Assembly (NCBI GenBank): GCA_035192965.1
Contig: CP136571.1
Location: 1,322,501 to 1,386,500 of the forward strand
Source: Fuscovulum sp.
GTDB taxonomy: Bacteria > Pseudomonadota > Alphaproteobacteria > Rhodobacterales > Rhodobacteraceae
Direction of reading: 5' to 3'
DNA: 64,000 bases
Positions 6,080-31,322 of this stretch are shown here, one piece after another (within the stretch, counting starts at the first letter, position 1; the number at the start of each line of letters is the position of its first letter). The translations under genes and the position numbers were made by a program. Below the pieces are notes generated by a model, which saw only the letters and a list, made by a program, of their open reading frames with translations, was not told the origin of the DNA and ran no database searches.

Positions 6080-6444
6080 CGATCCGGATCCTTGCCATCG
6101 ATGACAGCCCAACGATGCGCGGCCTTGTCGCCGCCGCGCTGGAGCCCAGCGGGTTTGAGCTTCACCTAGCCGAAGACGGGATGAAGGGTCTGGATATCCT
6201 GTCCAAGGCCGACCCCCATCTGGTGATCACCGATATCAACATGCCGCGCCTTGATGGGTTCGGGGTGATCGAAGGGGTTCGGTCCAGCGCGGCCTATGCC
6301 AGTGTGCCGATCCTCGTGCTCACGACGGAAAGCGGCAATGACCTGAAGGATCGCGCGCGCCGGGCCGGAGCAACCGGGTGGATCGTCAAACCCTTTGATG
6401 ACAGCCGCCTGATTCAGACGATCAACCGTGTGCTGGGGCTGTGA
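6076..6444 (+). CDS. cheY: CheY-type single-domain response regulator
   Basis: 122 residues, entirely a receiver domain. The acidic pair is in LAIDDSPTMR, the phospho-acceptor Asp in LVITDINMPRLDG, the switch Thr in ILVLTTE and the conserved Lys in VKPFD. It is predicted to take phosphate from CheA and act on the flagellar motor or as a phosphate sink. It overlaps the STAS gene by ATGA and cheA-N by GTGA. A second CheY at 9969-10355 has a different surface, so the two may have separate roles. Confidence 0.94.
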   Translation: MTIRILAIDDSPTMRGLVAAALEPSGFELHLAEDGMKGLDILSKADPHLVITDINMPRLDGFGVIEGVRSSAAYASVPILVLTTESGNDLKDRARRAGATGWIVKPFDDSRLIQTINRVLGL

Positions 6445-7343
6445 CGATGACAAGCATCGATGCCTTGCGACCTGCCTTTTTTGAAGAATGTGAAGATCTG
6501 CTCCTGCGGATGGGCGAAGGCCTTGGCCGCATCCCCGAAGCGGTGCAGCGCAATGAGTTGGAGACGATCCACGATGTTTTTCGCGCCGTGCATTCCATCA
6601 AGGGCGGCGCGGGCGCCTTTGGGCTGACATCGCTTGTCGGCTTCGCGCATGCCTTCGAGACGGTGCTGGATCTGATGCGCAGCGGTGCGCTCCATCCGGA
6701 TGCGGCCGCGATGCATACCCTATTGCGGGCCTCGGATGTTCTGGGTGACCTTGTTGCTGCAGCACGCGACGGCTCGGCAGAGCCTGTGCAGATGGGGCAA
6801 CTGCTGGTCGAGCTTGATCTTTTGGCCGAAGGAAGCCCCGCGCAAGAGGATGAGGAGGCGGCCTTTGCCTTCGTGCCGATGCAGATCGAAATTCTGCCCC
6901 TTGGCGATGCCGAAGCGGCGCAAGGCCCGGACTGCGGCGGATTTGCCATCAGCTTTGAGCCGAGTGTCGCGCTTTACGCGGCTGGCCATGAGCCATTGGC
7001 ACTTTTTCGGGCGATCGCCGAACTGGGCGATACAGAGGTGGTGGCGGATACTTCGGCCGTCGCCCCCTTGGCACGTCTTGATCTGTCAGATCCGCAGTTG
7101 TTCTGGCATCTGAATGTCAAAACCGCCGCGCCGGAAGACGAGGTCATGTCGGTCTTCGCTTTTGTGGGTGACATGGCCCGGATCGCAATCCAGCCACACC
7201 CTGCAGGCACCTCCCAGCCAGAGCCTGATCTTCCTGCCGCAGCGCCGCCGCCAGAGAATCCGGCCCCCGCGCCAACGTTTGCCAAGTCAGGCGCCGAAGG
7301 CTTGCGCGCTGTTGCCAAAGCCCCGGCGGCGCTTCTGTCATGA
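6441..7343 (+). CDS. cheA: CheA N-terminal half: HPt (P1) domain plus P2-like region
   Basis: 300 residues from a GTG overlapping the cheY stop; an ATG six bases on is an alternative. Residues 1-110 form a P1 phosphotransfer domain with the phosphorylated His in AVHSIKGGAGAFGL. Residues about 165-245 resemble the ferredoxin-like P2/CheA regulatory domain. A Pro/Ala-rich linker follows, then TGA at 7341-7343. The dimerisation, ATPase and CheW-like domains that normally continue are encoded by the next gene, which starts at the overlapping ATGA. Together the halves have about 698 residues, a normal CheA length. This is either a natural split kinase or a one-base frameshift. Confidence 0.9.
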   Translation: MTMTSIDALRPAFFEECEDLLLRMGEGLGRIPEAVQRNELETIHDVFRAVHSIKGGAGAFGLTSLVGFAHAFETVLDLMRSGALHPDAAAMHTLLRASDVLGDLVAAARDGSAEPVQMGQLLVELDLLAEGSPAQEDEEAAFAFVPMQIEILPLGDAEAAQGPDCGGFAISFEPSVALYAAGHEPLALFRAIAELGDTEVVADTSAVAPLARLDLSDPQLFWHLNVKTAAPEDEVMSVFAFVGDMARIAIQPHPAGTSQPEPDLPAAAPPPENPAPAPTFAKSGAEGLRAVAKAPAALLS

Positions 7344-8536
7344 CAACGATCCGCGTCAACCTGGACCGCGTTGATCGGCTGATCAACCAGATCGGCGAAC
7401 TGGTCATCATGGAAGCCATGCTGTCGCAGGCCATTTCGACCGCAGGCCTGCGCGATGATGGCGATATCTCCAGCAGCCTTGAGGGGATCAAGCAGCTGGC
7501 GGCCAAAATCCAGGAAAGCGTGATGGCGATTCGGGCCCAGCCGCTCAAATCGGTGTTTCAGCGTCTGGAAAGGATTACGCGGGAAGCGGCGGATGCAACG
7601 CACAAACAGGTGCGGCTGGAAACGGTGGGCGAAGCGACAGAGGTCGACAAGACTGTCATCGAACGGCTTGTCGATCCCTTGACCCACATGATCCGCAATT
7701 CGGTGGATCACGGCATCGAAACCACCGAACTGCGCCTTGCGGCGGGAAAGCCGGCAGAAGGCACCATCACCCTTTCAGCGGCCCACCGCTCAGGCCGGGT
7801 GATCATCGAAGTGGTCGATGACGGTGCGGGCATCAACCGCCCCAGGGTGCGGGAAGTGGCCGAAGAAAAGGGGCTGATCCCGCCCGGAGCACAGCTTTCC
7901 CCGGCCGATATCGACAATCTTCTGTTTCTTCCAGGCTTCTCGTCCAAGGAGGAGGTTTCGGCGCTGTCCGGCCGTGGCGTCGGGCTGGATGTGGTACGGC
8001 GCGAGATACAGTCGCTGGGCGGGCGCGTATCGATCCAGTCCACCCCGGGGCAGGGGACCAGTTTCACCATCGCCCTGCCGCTGACCCTGGCCGTGTTGGA
8101 GGGTATGCTGATCGGTGTTGGCGGTGAGACGATGATCCTGCCGATTTCTTCGATCATCGAAACCCTCAGACCAAACGAATCCGAGATCCATCGCCTTGGG
8201 CGGAGCGGCCGGTTGATCGCAAAACGCGGCGAAATGATTCCGATCATAGACCTTGCCCAAAGCTTTGGCTTTGCATCGACAGAAGACGATCAGCGCAGGG
8301 TTCTGATCCTTGTCGAATGCGATTCCGGGCGGCGCGCTGCGCTGGCTGCAGACCGGATATTCGATCAGCGGCAGGTCGTCATCAAAAGCCTGGAAGACAA
8401 TTACGGAACCGTTCCCGGCATTTCGGCAGCCACCATCCTTGGCGACGGCAGGATCGCCCTGATCGTGGACCCCGAAGAAATCGTTCAGCGCGCCATCGTT
8501 GAAGCCCCGTCCCTGCCCTTTGCAGCCAATGGATAG
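7340..8536 (+). CDS. cheA: CheA C-terminal half: dimerisation, ATPase and CheW-like domains (P3-P4-P5)
   Basis: 398 residues. It opens directly at the canonical P3 motif (TIRVNLDRVDRLINQIGELV). The ATPase domain has N box HMIRNSVDHG, G1 VVDDGAGI, F box FLPGFSSKE and G2 GRGVGLDVV, so it should bind and hydrolyse ATP. The last 130 residues are the CheW-like P5 domain that docks to receptors and CheW. It has no phospho-accepting His of its own and must phosphorylate the P1 domain of the preceding product in trans. There is no clear ribosome site; translation is likely coupled through the ATGA overlap. Confidence 0.94.
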   Translation: MTTIRVNLDRVDRLINQIGELVIMEAMLSQAISTAGLRDDGDISSSLEGIKQLAAKIQESVMAIRAQPLKSVFQRLERITREAADATHKQVRLETVGEATEVDKTVIERLVDPLTHMIRNSVDHGIETTELRLAAGKPAEGTITLSAAHRSGRVIIEVVDDGAGINRPRVREVAEEKGLIPPGAQLSPADIDNLLFLPGFSSKEEVSALSGRGVGLDVVRREIQSLGGRVSIQSTPGQGTSFTIALPLTLAVLEGMLIGVGGETMILPISSIIETLRPNESEIHRLGRSGRLIAKRGEMIPIIDLAQSFGFASTEDDQRRVLILVECDSGRRAALAADRIFDQRQVVIKSLEDNYGTVPGISAATILGDGRIALIVDPEEIVQRAIVEAPSLPFAANG

Positions 8537-8542
8537 ACCATC

Positions 8543-9013
8543 ATGCACCAGATGATTCTTCAAAACGCAGCCGATCAAAGCGACTTTGTCTGCTTCCGGA
8601 TCGGAGAACAGGATTACTGCATCGACATCGAAGTGGTCCGCGAAATCCGGGGTTGGACCCCGGCAACGGTCCTGCCTCATGCGCCCGGTTTTGTCACCGG
8701 AGTGATCAATCTGCGCGGGTCGGTCGTGGCTGTCGTCGATCTGGCCGCGCGGCTGGCCATCGGCAAAACCGATCCGACCCCGCGCCATGTCGTCATCATC
8801 GTGGCCTTCGGCAACCAGACGGTTGGTCTGCTTGCGGATGTCGTGTCCGACATCATGGGGATCGACGAGGCCGCGATGAAACCGGTGCCCGACGTCGCGT
8901 CTGATGGGGCGGGTGTTTTCATCACCAAAGTGATCACGCTTGAGGACGGGCGAATGCTGCGCAAGCTGGACCTTGCGGCGGTTCTTCCGGGCAAAGACCA
9001 AGAGGCCGCGTGA
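8543..9013 (+). CDS. cheW: Chemotaxis adaptor protein CheW
   Basis: 156 residues, one CheW domain with two SH3-like subdomains: FVCFRIGEQDYCIDIEVVREI at the start, then GVINLRGSVVAVVDLAARL and VGLLADVVSDI. It links receptors to CheA P5 in the signalling array. It lies 6 bp after cheA, and its stop overlaps the cheR start. Confidence 0.95.
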   Translation: MHQMILQNAADQSDFVCFRIGEQDYCIDIEVVREIRGWTPATVLPHAPGFVTGVINLRGSVVAVVDLAARLAIGKTDPTPRHVVIIVAFGNQTVGLLADVVSDIMGIDEAAMKPVPDVASDGAGVFITKVITLEDGRMLRKLDLAAVLPGKDQEAA

Positions 9014-9968: not shown

Positions 9969-10355
9969 ATGTCGCTCAGGTTTTCGCTGACGATGATGGT
10001 TGTCGATGACATGACGGTGAGCCGGGGTCTGGTGGAACAGGCGCTGGACGAGATTGGAATTCAGAAGGTGCAATATGAAAACAACGGTGAAGCGGCCCTG
10101 AAAAAGCTGGCCAGCAATCCGGTTCATCTTGTTCTGTCTGATTTCAACATGCCGGGTATGGATGGGCTTTCCTTGCTGGAAGCGCTGCGGATGAACCGCT
10201 CCACGCAGCGGATCGGGTTCATTCTGATGACCGGTCGCGCCAGCAAGGAGATGATCACCCGTGGCCATTCGCTGGGCATGAACAATTTCATCAGCAAACC
10301 CTTCACGACGCTGAGCCTGAAGGTCTGCATCGAGAAAGTGGTCGGAACACTATGA
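9969..10355 (+). CDS. CheY-like single-domain response regulator
   Basis: 128 residues, receiver only. VVDDMTVSR holds the acidic pair, LVLSDFNMPGMDG the phospho-Asp, LMTGR the switch Thr and ISKPF the Lys. It differs clearly in sequence from the cheY at 6076, so the operon encodes two distinct CheA partners. It starts 2 bp after cheR and overlaps the next gene by ATGA. Confidence 0.93.
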   Translation: MSLRFSLTMMVVDDMTVSRGLVEQALDEIGIQKVQYENNGEAALKKLASNPVHLVLSDFNMPGMDGLSLLEALRMNRSTQRIGFILMTGRASKEMITRGHSLGMNNFISKPFTTLSLKVCIEKVVGTL

Positions 10356-10798
10356 TCTTTGAAGGGCTCGAAGCCGAGGCTGCGGCTCCGGCCGCGGCGC
10401 CATCTGAAATCGTTGCGCGGGATCTGCTGGCCGCCTGCTCATCCGAGATCCGGCGTCAGGCGGGGGCGATGGCATCGCTGGATGCGTCGCTTGGTGCCAT
10501 GTTGGACATCTGGCGCAGGTCATCCGACCCGGCGGAAACGAAAACGCTGATGACACCGGCACTTTTGGCCGAACTGCAACGCGCCGATCAGTTACGCCAA
10601 GAGATGGAAGGAATAGCCAGGACGTTGGAGCTGTTGGTCGCGGCCGGGTCACTGATCCTTCCGATCCGGTCCGAGACTGTGCGCGCCTGCACGCCGTTGG
10701 GGGATTTGCAAGGCAGGCTCCTTTGTGGACCCGGGCGCATGGGCGGGCTGGAAGGCGAGGCAGTTCCTGATCTGCTTCTGGGTGATGTGGCGCAGTAG
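10352..10798 (+). CDS. Uncharacterised protein at the end of the chemotaxis operon
   Basis: 148 residues, not recognised. It is helical and Ala/Leu-rich, with a possible amphipathic helix around LAELQRADQLRQEMEGIARTLELL. There is no signal peptide and no membrane segment. Translation is coupled to the preceding cheY by an ATGA overlap, which suggests a role with that response regulator. A CheZ- or CheT-like auxiliary protein is conceivable by position and helicity, but I see no diagnostic motif. Confidence 0.6.
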   Translation: MIFEGLEAEAAAPAAAPSEIVARDLLAACSSEIRRQAGAMASLDASLGAMLDIWRRSSDPAETKTLMTPALLAELQRADQLRQEMEGIARTLELLVAAGSLILPIRSETVRACTPLGDLQGRLLCGPGRMGGLEGEAVPDLLLGDVAQ

Positions 10799-11185: not shown

Positions 11186-12919
11186 TCACCCAAATGCACG
11201 TTGAACAGTCGCGGCAGCAGGTGCCGAACTGTCGGCCGATGCGCGGCTTTCCTGCCCCGATGGCGCGGTTGATGGTGGGCCAAGGCGGAACGTCATCAGA
11301 ACCGTGTTCATCTGGGCCGTTTCGCGATCAAGGTCAGAGGTGATCGTGGTCGCACTTTGCGCCATCGCCGTGTTCTGGCGGGTCACCTCGTTAAGGCGGT
11401 CCACGCTGGAGGCGATCTGCGACAATCCGGATGCCTGCTCTTCGGCGGCCTCGGCGATGTTCACGACGATATCCCGGATGTTGGATATGCCCACTACCAT
11501 TTCGCCGATGGCATTTCCCGTTCTGTCCACCAGAGCCACGCTTTCGCCGACATTGCGCGTGCTGTCGCCAATCAGCCGCTTGATTTCCTGCGCCGCTTCG
11601 GCCGAACGCTGGGCCAGATCGCGGACCTCCAGCGCGACGACGGCAAAGCCGCGACCGCTTTCGCCGGCGCGGGCCGCCTCGATCCCGGCATTCAGTGCAA
11701 GGAGGTTGGTCTGGAAGGCAATCTCGTCGATCGCGCCAATGATGCGTTCGATCTTGCCCGAAGATGATTCCAGGCTTTTCATTGCGACAACCGTCTGCTG
11801 CATTACATTCGACACGTGATGCGCGTTTTCCGTGACAGAGCCGACAAGCTTGCGCGCCTCACGCGTGCTTTCGGTGGTTTGCTGCACGGTCGAGGTGATC
11901 TGCGTCAGCGCCGCAGCGCTTTGGTCGATCGACGTGGCTTGCTGTTCTGTCCTGTGCGTCAGGCTGTCCGACGATCGCCGCAATTCCTGTGATCTTCCCC
12001 GCACGTTCAGCGAACTGTCGCGGATCTGCTGCATTGTGGATTGCAGCCGATCCAGCGCGCTGTTGAAGTCGGTCGACAGCCTGTCGAACAAGGGCGACAG
12101 TTTCAGCACCGGCACACGTTGTTCCAGATCGCCATCTGCCAGAGCGCTGAAGGCAGGGCCGATGGTATCGAGGAAAGCAATCCTGTCGGTGATGTCGGTG
12201 CAGAATTTGGTGAACTTGACGATATTGCCCTCTTCATCGCGGATGGGGGTGTAGGCGCCATCTATCCAGACCGCGCGGCCCGATTTCGTTCTGCGCTTGA
12301 ACTCTGACTGGATATGTTCGCCGGACAGCAGATTGTTCCAGAACACCTTTTATTCGGGCGAGCGGACCTCGACCGGATCCACGAAGATCGAATGATGCTT
12401 GCCGATGATTTCGTCGAGGGCGTACCCCATCAGTCTGAGGAAATTCTCGTTCGCGGACAGAATGCTTCCGTTCAGATCAAAATCGATCTTGGCTTGCCTG
12501 CGGCTGATGGCGCGCATCTGTTCGCCGAAATCGACATTTTCCAGCCGTGTGCTGGCATCGGCCCATTCGACAACATATCCGGATATTCCCCAAAGGGACC
12601 GGATCGGCGTGGCGATCAGGTCAAAGGATCTTGCCCCGATCCGGATGGTGGTGCGATGCGTGGCCTGCAGGGCGGGCAGCATGCTGCGCTGGTGCGAAGC
12701 TATCTTGTGAAAGATGTCGATCTTTTGGCCCATCAGCCGGTCGACCGAAAACTGTGGCATGTCGCGGCGCAGCTGTTCTTCTGACTGGCGCAGAAAGGCC
12801 CGCAACGACGGATTGACATAGGTGATGCGCAACCCGCGGTTCGCGATCATCACAGGGGCCTGCATCGACTGGACGGCCTTGTAGACGAGACGGCCTTTGG
12901 GAACCAACCTGGACAACAT
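11186..12919 (-). pseudogene. Soluble PAS-type methyl-accepting chemotaxis protein interrupted by an in-frame stop
   Basis: One continuous frame of 578 codons is broken by a single TAA at 12352-12350. The first 189 residues hold a PAS domain (about 10-115) and the first part of a second PAS (from about 130, ending KHHSIFVDP...RSPE). The frame resumes as KVFWNNLLSGEHIQ, the normal continuation of that PAS, then a coiled region and the MA domain with an intact tip ([19 protein letters not shown]). There is no membrane segment, so the intact protein would be a cytoplasmic receptor. Related PAS domains usually have Tyr at this spot, so one base change explains the stop. Readthrough, re-initiation at the GTG at 12346, or a sequence error are alternatives. 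Confidence 0.88.
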
Positions 12920-28440: not shown

Positions 28441-30540
28441 ATGCCGATCCGCACCCGTGCCCAGAGGGCGCAGCTTCTGTGTTCCGTGCCTTTGATCCTG
28501 ATCTGCGCCGGGCCTGCCGCCGCGCAGGAGAATGAGGGGTTTTTTCAGGTTCTGGGCCGCATCATCCTTGGCACCGGGACGGCGAAGGTGGCCATCGACA
28601 CCCCGCAAGCGGTAAGCACGATCGAGGCTGAAGAACTGGAACGCGATCAGCCTGCCACCATCGGCGATCTGTTCAAGGCGGTGCCGGGCGTGCAAGGCGC
28701 GGGGGCATCGGCCCGGCCCTTGGGGCAGGCGTTCAACATCCGGGGCATCGGCAACAGCGAGCAGACCGCATCCGAGGCGCGCATCATCGTGACGGTGGAT
28801 GGCGCGCCGAAGTTTTATGAAAGCTATCGGATGGGGTCGTTTCTGGGCGATCTGGACCTGTACAAGCGGGTGGAGGTGCTGAAAGGGCCTGCATCTTCGA
28901 CGCTGTACGGGTCGGGGGCGATTGGCGGGGCGGTGAATTTCACCACCAAGGAGGCCGGCGATTTTCTGGAGGAGGGCGAGACGCAGGCGCTGCGCTTTTC
29001 CAGCACCTATGACAGCAATGGCGATGGGGTGAAGCTGGGCATCATTTCCGCCACGCGGGCGGGCAGTGCCGAATATCTGGCCGGGTTCAACGTCACCACC
29101 GGGAATGACAAGGTGGACGGGGCAGGCAACCGGCTGGCGGGGACGGCTTATGACGGCTGGTCGGGGCTGGTGAAGGGCAAGTGGTATCTGGGGGCAGATG
29201 ACGAGCAGAGCCTGACACTGAGCCTGTCGCGGACGGACAGCGATCTGGACGGCACGCCGGTGGCGCAGACCGGGGGCGCGACGGTGGGGGCGTTTGGCCT
29301 GCATGACATGCATGCGGTGGATGACACGCTGACACTGGCCTGGCGGCATGAGTTCCGCGACAACCCGTTGCTGGATGTGACGGCGCAGCTGTCCTTTACC
29401 GATACGAGCGTGGAGAAGGAGAATTTCTCGCTGGGCGCGTCCTGCGCGCCGGGGACGTTTCAGGTTCTGTGCGACAGTTCTTATGGCTATGCGACCACCA
29501 CGCTGAAGCTGGAGAACACCGCCGATCTGAGCGCGGGAGCGTGGGAGAATTACCTGACCGTCGGGGTGCAGGTGTCAGAGCAGGAGCGCAGCGCGACATC
29601 GTCGCTGGGGGCTTTGGGGTTCCACCCCGAGGGGTCGGATCGGCGGGTCGGCCTTTATGCGCAGGGCGAGTTCACCTATGGCGAGCGGCTGACGATCATT
29701 CCGGGCCTGCGCGTCGATATGGGCGAGCAGACGCCGGGTGCGGCGGCGGTGGCAGCGGGGGCGTTGGCACAAGAGGACACCGCCGTGTCGCCCAAGATCG
29801 CGGCGATGTATGAGCTGAGCGACAGCTTTGCCATCTTTGGGTCGCTGGCGCGGACAGAGCGGATGCCGACGCTGGATGAGTTGTATTCCAGCGAGGCGGC
29901 GGGGGCCTTGCCGGCGCGGACACCCAGCCTGAACCTGCTGAAGGAAGAGGCGGATACGGTGGAGCTGGGCTTTACCTGGCAGCGAGAGGGGCTGTTGGCC
30001 GAGGGCGACAGTTTGCAGATGAAGGTGACAGCGTTTCACAACGATCTGACAAACATGATCGCCACCACACCGCGCGTGGCGGGCGGGCCTGCGGTGCCGT
30101 ATTTTTCCAACATCGCGGCGGCGGAGTTGTGGGGGGCCGAGGTGGAGGCCGCCTATGATGCGGAGCGGTGGTTCGCGCAACTGGCCTATTCCCACGTGAA
30201 ATCGAAGAACGCGGCGACGGGGCTGACATTGCCGGACACGCCGGCGGAGAATGTGGTGCTGACCTTGGGGGCCAAGCTGCCCGATCAGGGGCTGACGGTG
30301 GGCTGGCGGGCGAGTTACTTTGACAAGATCCGCACGTCATCCGCCACCACGACGGGCGCGTCATATGACACGCATGATGTGTTCCTGACCTGGTCACCCG
30401 AGGAGGGGCCATTGGCGGGGCTGGATGTGAACCTGTCGGTCGAGAATGTGTTTGACCGGGCCTATCGCAACAACCTGAGCCTGGACAATGCGGCGGGGCG
30501 GACGGCGAAACTGTCGGTTGCCAAGCGGATCGCGTTCTGA
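28441..30540 (+). CDS. hmuR: TonB-dependent heme/hemoglobin outer-membrane receptor
   Basis: 699 residues from the ATG at 28441 after AAAGGGG; longer frames upstream enter the promoter region. A signal peptide ([18 protein letters not shown]) precedes the plug domain ([23 protein letters not shown], then [25 protein letters not shown]). The barrel ends in an aromatic residue (RIAF). The invariant barrel motif NPLL...F and a YxxxRNNLS-like end ([14 protein letters not shown]) fit heme/hemoglobin receptors. It brings heme into the periplasm using the ExbB-ExbD-TonB complex encoded directly downstream. Confidence 0.93.
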
Positions 30541-31322
30541 TGCGGGGGCTGGTGGGGCTGGCCTTGGTGCCGGGGGTTGCCTTGGCGCAAGAGGGGGGCG
30601 ATGCCGCCCCCCTGACCCCCCTTGCGGGCATTGCGCCCCCGCTGCACGCGCCCGTGCCGGTGGTGGAGATGATCCTTGCCGCGCATTGGGTGGTGCAGGG
30701 GGTGAGCCTTGTGCTGGCGCTGGGCTTGTTTGCAGTGGTGACGGTGCTGGTCTTCAAGGCCGGGGAATTGTGGCTGGCGGGGCACCGGCTGCGCCAGAGC
30801 CTGCTGTCGCTGGGCGGGGCGGGCACGCTGGACGAGGCGGCGCGGATGCTGGCGGGGCGGCGCTGCGCGGGGGCGGCGATGGCGGCGGCGGCGGTGGAGG
30901 AATATGCGTTGGCCTTGCCCGTGCTGGCGCAGGCGGGGCCCGCGGGCGTGAAGGAACGGGTGCGCGCGCGGGTGGAGCGGATCGCAGGCCGCGATGCGGC
31001 GCGGCTGCGGCGCGGGACGGGGGTGCTGGCCACGGTGGCGGCGACGGCGCCCTTCATCGGGCTGTTCGGGACGGTGTGGGGGATCATGTCATCCTTTCTG
31101 GCGATCAGCGCAGAGGGGACGACGAACCTTGCCGTTGTGGCACCGGGGATTGCCGAGGCGTTGCTGGTGACGGGGTTCGGGCTGGTGGCGGCGATCCCGG
31201 CGGTGGTGGTCTATAACGCGGTGCAACGGCGCATTGCGGGCCTGCGGCAAGCGATGGCGGATGTGGCGGTGGCGCTGGAGGTGCTGCTGGGCCGCGATCT
31301 GGACCGGAGGGCGGCGGCATGA
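30540..31322 (+). CDS. exbB: Biopolymer transport protein ExbB (MotA/TolQ/ExbB family)
   Basis: 260 residues. A short signal-like N-terminus ([15 protein letters not shown]) is followed by a membrane helix near 60, and a C-terminal helical pair with the family signature [22 protein letters not shown] and [18 protein letters not shown]. It forms the proton channel of the TonB energy system. It overlaps the receptor stop as TGATG and exbD as ATGA. Confidence 0.94.

Follow-up and report, generated by a model that had tools for sequence, protein, structure and literature searches.

The cheA locus of this genome raises the question of whether a chemotaxis kinase encoded by two overlapping reading frames is a naturally split enzyme or a single gene whose frame has been broken. 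We examined it in a window of 64,000 nucleotides (the whole stretch of DNA analysed), which is part of a genome assembled as a single contig of 4,225,158 bases. As the preliminary description had stated, an ORF for P1 and P2 ends at a TGA at 7341-7343, and the kinase core is read from an overlapping ATG at 7340. The upstream ORF (6441-7343) opens with GTG and codes for 300 residues; the downstream one (7340-8536) codes for 398, and the two frames lie one base apart. Their combined length, given before as about 698 residues and equal to that of a normal CheA, agrees exactly with the fused protein encoded by a genome from the same species.

Domains and codon usage across the junction

Hpt was the sole Pfam match in the upstream ORF (E 3.4e-15, residues 12-107), whereas the downstream ORF matched H-kinase_dim, HATPase_c and CheW. 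Taken together, the two ORFs thus hold Hpt (P1), H-kinase_dim (P3), HATPase_c (P4) and the CheW-like domain (P5) in the order found in CheA. In the same-species genome these domains are carried by a single polypeptide, but in the window genome the frame is broken. The codon-usage score passes from the 6441 frame to the 7340 frame inside the linker, at about 7200-7300, as is predicted for one gene with a change of frame. A second cheA that could serve as a backup was not found, as a search of the genome for H-kinase_dim returned one match only.

The che cluster runs in the order MCP (minus strand), cheD (minus), cheB (minus), STAS, cheY, cheA in two ORFs, cheW, cheR, cheY, a small ORF and a second MCP (minus); cheD, cheB and cheR were named by sequence and synteny and not by Pfam. 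The small ORF that closes the operon (10352-10798) has a counterpart in relatives and no Pfam match. Native junctions of the operon overlap by GTGA (cheY/cheA, 6441-6444; cheW/cheR, 9010-9013) or by ATGA (cheY/small ORF, 10352-10355), an arrangement that suggests translational coupling. The features of the locus are collected in Table 1.

Table 1. Features of the broken cheA gene and of the neighbouring chemoreceptor gene (G061, same-species genome)
Feature	Coordinates	Strand	Basis
5' part of cheA, 300 aa, with P1 (Hpt), a P2-like region and the linker	6441..7343	+	Pfam Hpt; aligns with residues 1-298 of the G061 fused protein
5' part of cheA, end	6441..7343	+	Shifted frame leads to an early end at TGA 7341-7343
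3' part of cheA: P3 dimerisation, P4 ATPase and P5 CheW-like domains, 398 aa	7340..8536	+	Pfam; protein equals the same-species fused CheA without amino-acid difference
ATGA overlap, stop and possible restart codon	7340..7343	+	In fused relatives the ATG codes for an internal Met
Single-base deletion site (TT-CT; one C fewer than G061)	7332..7335	+	Pairwise alignments with same-species loci L160, L161-L171
PAS-PAS chemoreceptor (MCP) gene, broken by in-frame TAA at 12350-12352	11186..12919	-	TAC (Tyr) in G061

The junction in a same-species genome and in other relatives

Genome G061 was marked as the same species in a genus-wide rpoB search (99% identity in rpoB) and is about 98% identical to the window genome across syntenic DNA. 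Its cheA is one fused ORF of 698 residues. When the two loci were aligned, one C was found to be missing from the window at 7333/7334 (GCGCTT-CTGTCATG in the window, GCGCTTCCTGTCATG in G061), with no further indel across 4.1 kb. It had been proposed that one base added ahead of the ATG would fuse the ORFs, and that a frameshift, in the cell or in the assembly, could account for the junction; the extra C of G061 lies there and bears out both points. The deletion changes CC to C, and CTTCCTG to CTTCTG, in a context that is not a homopolymer.

The nearest other relative is a genus mate, Paragemmobacter kunshanensis (formerly Rhodobacter kunshanensis HX-7-19; NZ_JAALFE010000001.1), and its cheA is fused as well. 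The alignment with this genome requires an independent gap of one base close to 7333/7334. That gap, together with the fused gene of G061, indicates that the deletion is derived and confined to the window genome. Over the kinase core (7340-8536) the window and G061 differ by 12 synonymous and no nonsynonymous codons, which indicates that this part was under selection until recently. The stretch coding for P1-P2 and the linker (6441-7331) differs by 6 synonymous and 7 nonsynonymous codons.

Among 80 CheA loci from named genomes, 76 also hold P1, and in 74 of these 76 loci from other genomes CheA is fused. In the two exceptions, L139 (Yoonia vestfoldensis SKA53) and L132 (a Rhodoblastus MAG), P1 is separated from P3 by an in-frame stop; L151, a relative of the Yoonia locus, is fused. 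The ATGA junction of the window was absent from all 76 P1-holding loci compared. In the search of relatives, loci with both P1 and P3 had them fused in frame, L029 excepted. L029, from a member of the genus (G006), is a different CheA, about 43% identical, whose P1 and P3 parts change frame in a linker of their own.

Several of the fused relatives have a Met just ahead of the start of P3 (AMPTIRV, LPMSTTIRV, LPMTTTIRV). The apparent start codon at 7340 is thus an ancestral internal codon, older than the split, and the TGA at the junction results from reading ATG-A one base out of frame. Some caution is called for here, because an ATGA overlap placed exactly at a domain boundary gives the impression of design, and yet it arose when a single base was lost at an ancestral ATG-A pair of codons. 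We conclude that the break in cheA is a real property of the window assembly and not of the species or the lineage.

Origin of the break and what may follow from it

Private breaks were counted against G061 over 151 kb of synteny, extended by another 400 kb to about 550 kb, in which 478 genes predicted in G061 were matched. P. kunshanensis was dropped as a yardstick for the break rate, since synteny near the window was scant (19-24 ORFs matched). Flags near the N-terminus of long ORFs, where starts are uncertain, were set aside by eye, as was the flag E_147705 (residue 240 of 313), which looks like a wrong-strand ORF. Among the 478 genes, this left two mid-gene breaks that only the window genome has, one in cheA and the other in the chemoreceptor gene 5 kb away. 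The latter is a TAA stop, in frame and within the second PAS domain, at a position that codes for Tyr in P. kunshanensis as well. Both breaks lie inside the che cluster, which has about 11 genes; by simple counting, done after the result was seen, the chance that two randomly placed breaks would both fall among about 11 of 478 genes is about 0.0005. With only two convincing private breaks in about 550 kb, a generally error-rich assembly was ruled out. G061 has breaks of its own, including those in an ExbB-like and a glutamine-synthetase-like gene (both named by eye from sequence). An apparent frameshift of the window near 31014 was discarded, as that break belongs to G061; the ExbB-like gene, at about 30540-31322 of the window, is intact in the window genome and frameshifted in G061. 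In the window genome flhA is open and the flagellar stretch is without a convincing break, so that motility itself does not seem to be decaying. From the two breaks in the che cluster, one of them a substitution, we infer relaxed selection on chemotaxis in this strain, either in nature or in culture.

It is thus quite probable that this is an ordinary single-gene CheA whose frame was broken, in the window genome only, by a real and recent mutation that removed one C from the P2-P3 linker. The mutation, in the only cheA found in the strain, would have been tolerated because chemotaxis was presumably dispensable where the strain lived or was cultured. The one certain product of the broken gene would be a soluble P1-P2 fragment. 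Reinitiation at the overlapping ATGA, if it occurs, would yield a P1-less P3-P4-P5 kinase core in addition, and such reinitiation is plausible given that the cheY/cheA, cheW/cheR and cheY/small-ORF junctions overlap likewise. Even then, P1-P2 would be without a P5 anchor of the CheA3 kind, and signalling to CheY would be expected to be lost or much weakened. As counterpoints, the flagellar genes look intact, and the overlap is native-like in form, so that both fragments could be made and function need not be lost.

An error of sequencing or assembly, in which the true gene is fused and one C was dropped, seems unlikely to us. It would fit a difference of a single base from the same-species genome, and a G+C-rich linker is also frame-changed in the assembly of the genus member that carries L029, although in a different CheA. 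Against it, the missing base sits in CTTCCTG and not in a homopolymer, the assembly is otherwise clean, cheA being the only one of about 478 genes with a convincing private frameshift, and the neighbouring MCP gene is broken by a substitution, something that a base-calling indel would not account for. We give still less weight to the idea that programmed ribosomal frameshifting yields a fused CheA from the shifted gene. The frames do overlap, and a shift of -1 would bring them together; however, no slippery heptamer of the form X XXY YYZ was found in the usable overlap (7200-7343), and the same-species genome and the relatives require no shift, which makes this reading close to negligible.

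It is also conceivable, though we regard it as very improbable, that the split works in trans: after the TGA, ribosomes would reinitiate at the ATG, and a dimeric P3-P4-P5 would join the receptor array and phosphorylate free P1-P2, with partial or normal chemotaxis. The position of the ATG at the start of P3, the same NTGA overlap at other operon junctions and the finding that P1 phosphorylation in trans can work in Rhodobacter sphaeroides CheA3/CheA4 (PMC3591291) agree with this. Yet the split occurs in one genome only and gives no indication of having been maintained by selection; the ATG is present because the ancestral protein has a Met there; the best candidate for a Shine-Dalgarno sequence is GGCGG, which is not strong; and, in contrast to CheA3 (PMC3591291), the P1 piece lacks a P5 that could keep it in the array. 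There is likewise only a slight chance that this CheA was caught at gene fission, one deletion having produced an ATGA-coupled pair of P1-P2 and P3-P4-P5 that goes on signalling in trans, a natural equivalent of the liberated-P1 experiments done in the laboratory. If the strain does chemotax, it would offer a handy natural test of a CheA working with P1-P2 unlinked. Function in trans, even if present, would not make this cheA an evolved split kinase.

Comparison with known CheA systems

The suggestion that this is a natural split kinase like CheA3/CheA4 did not hold, as the same-species genome and all close relatives have a fused CheA, an outcome that the preliminary description itself had named as refuting it. 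In R. sphaeroides, the P5 domain of CheA3 binds the cluster, and both CheA3 and CheA4 are needed in the working system (PMC3591291). As in the window, P1 and the P3-P4 kinase domains are there on different proteins. In contrast to that system, the P1 piece of the window is without P5 (only Hpt was found by Pfam in 6441-7340), and the split comes from a change of one base that is confined to a single genome, instead of being conserved among strains or relatives, the two loci that are not fused among the 76 being unrelated in-frame stops. The cheA of the window is therefore an ordinary strain-specific break and not a new kind of split kinase. The fused CheA proteins of G061 and P. kunshanensis have the same domains and the same neighbouring che genes as the window, and its kinase core protein is identical to that of G061 and 89% identical to that of P. 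kunshanensis; the difference is that in these two genomes CheA is a single ORF, whereas in the window the P2-P3 linker is one base shorter.
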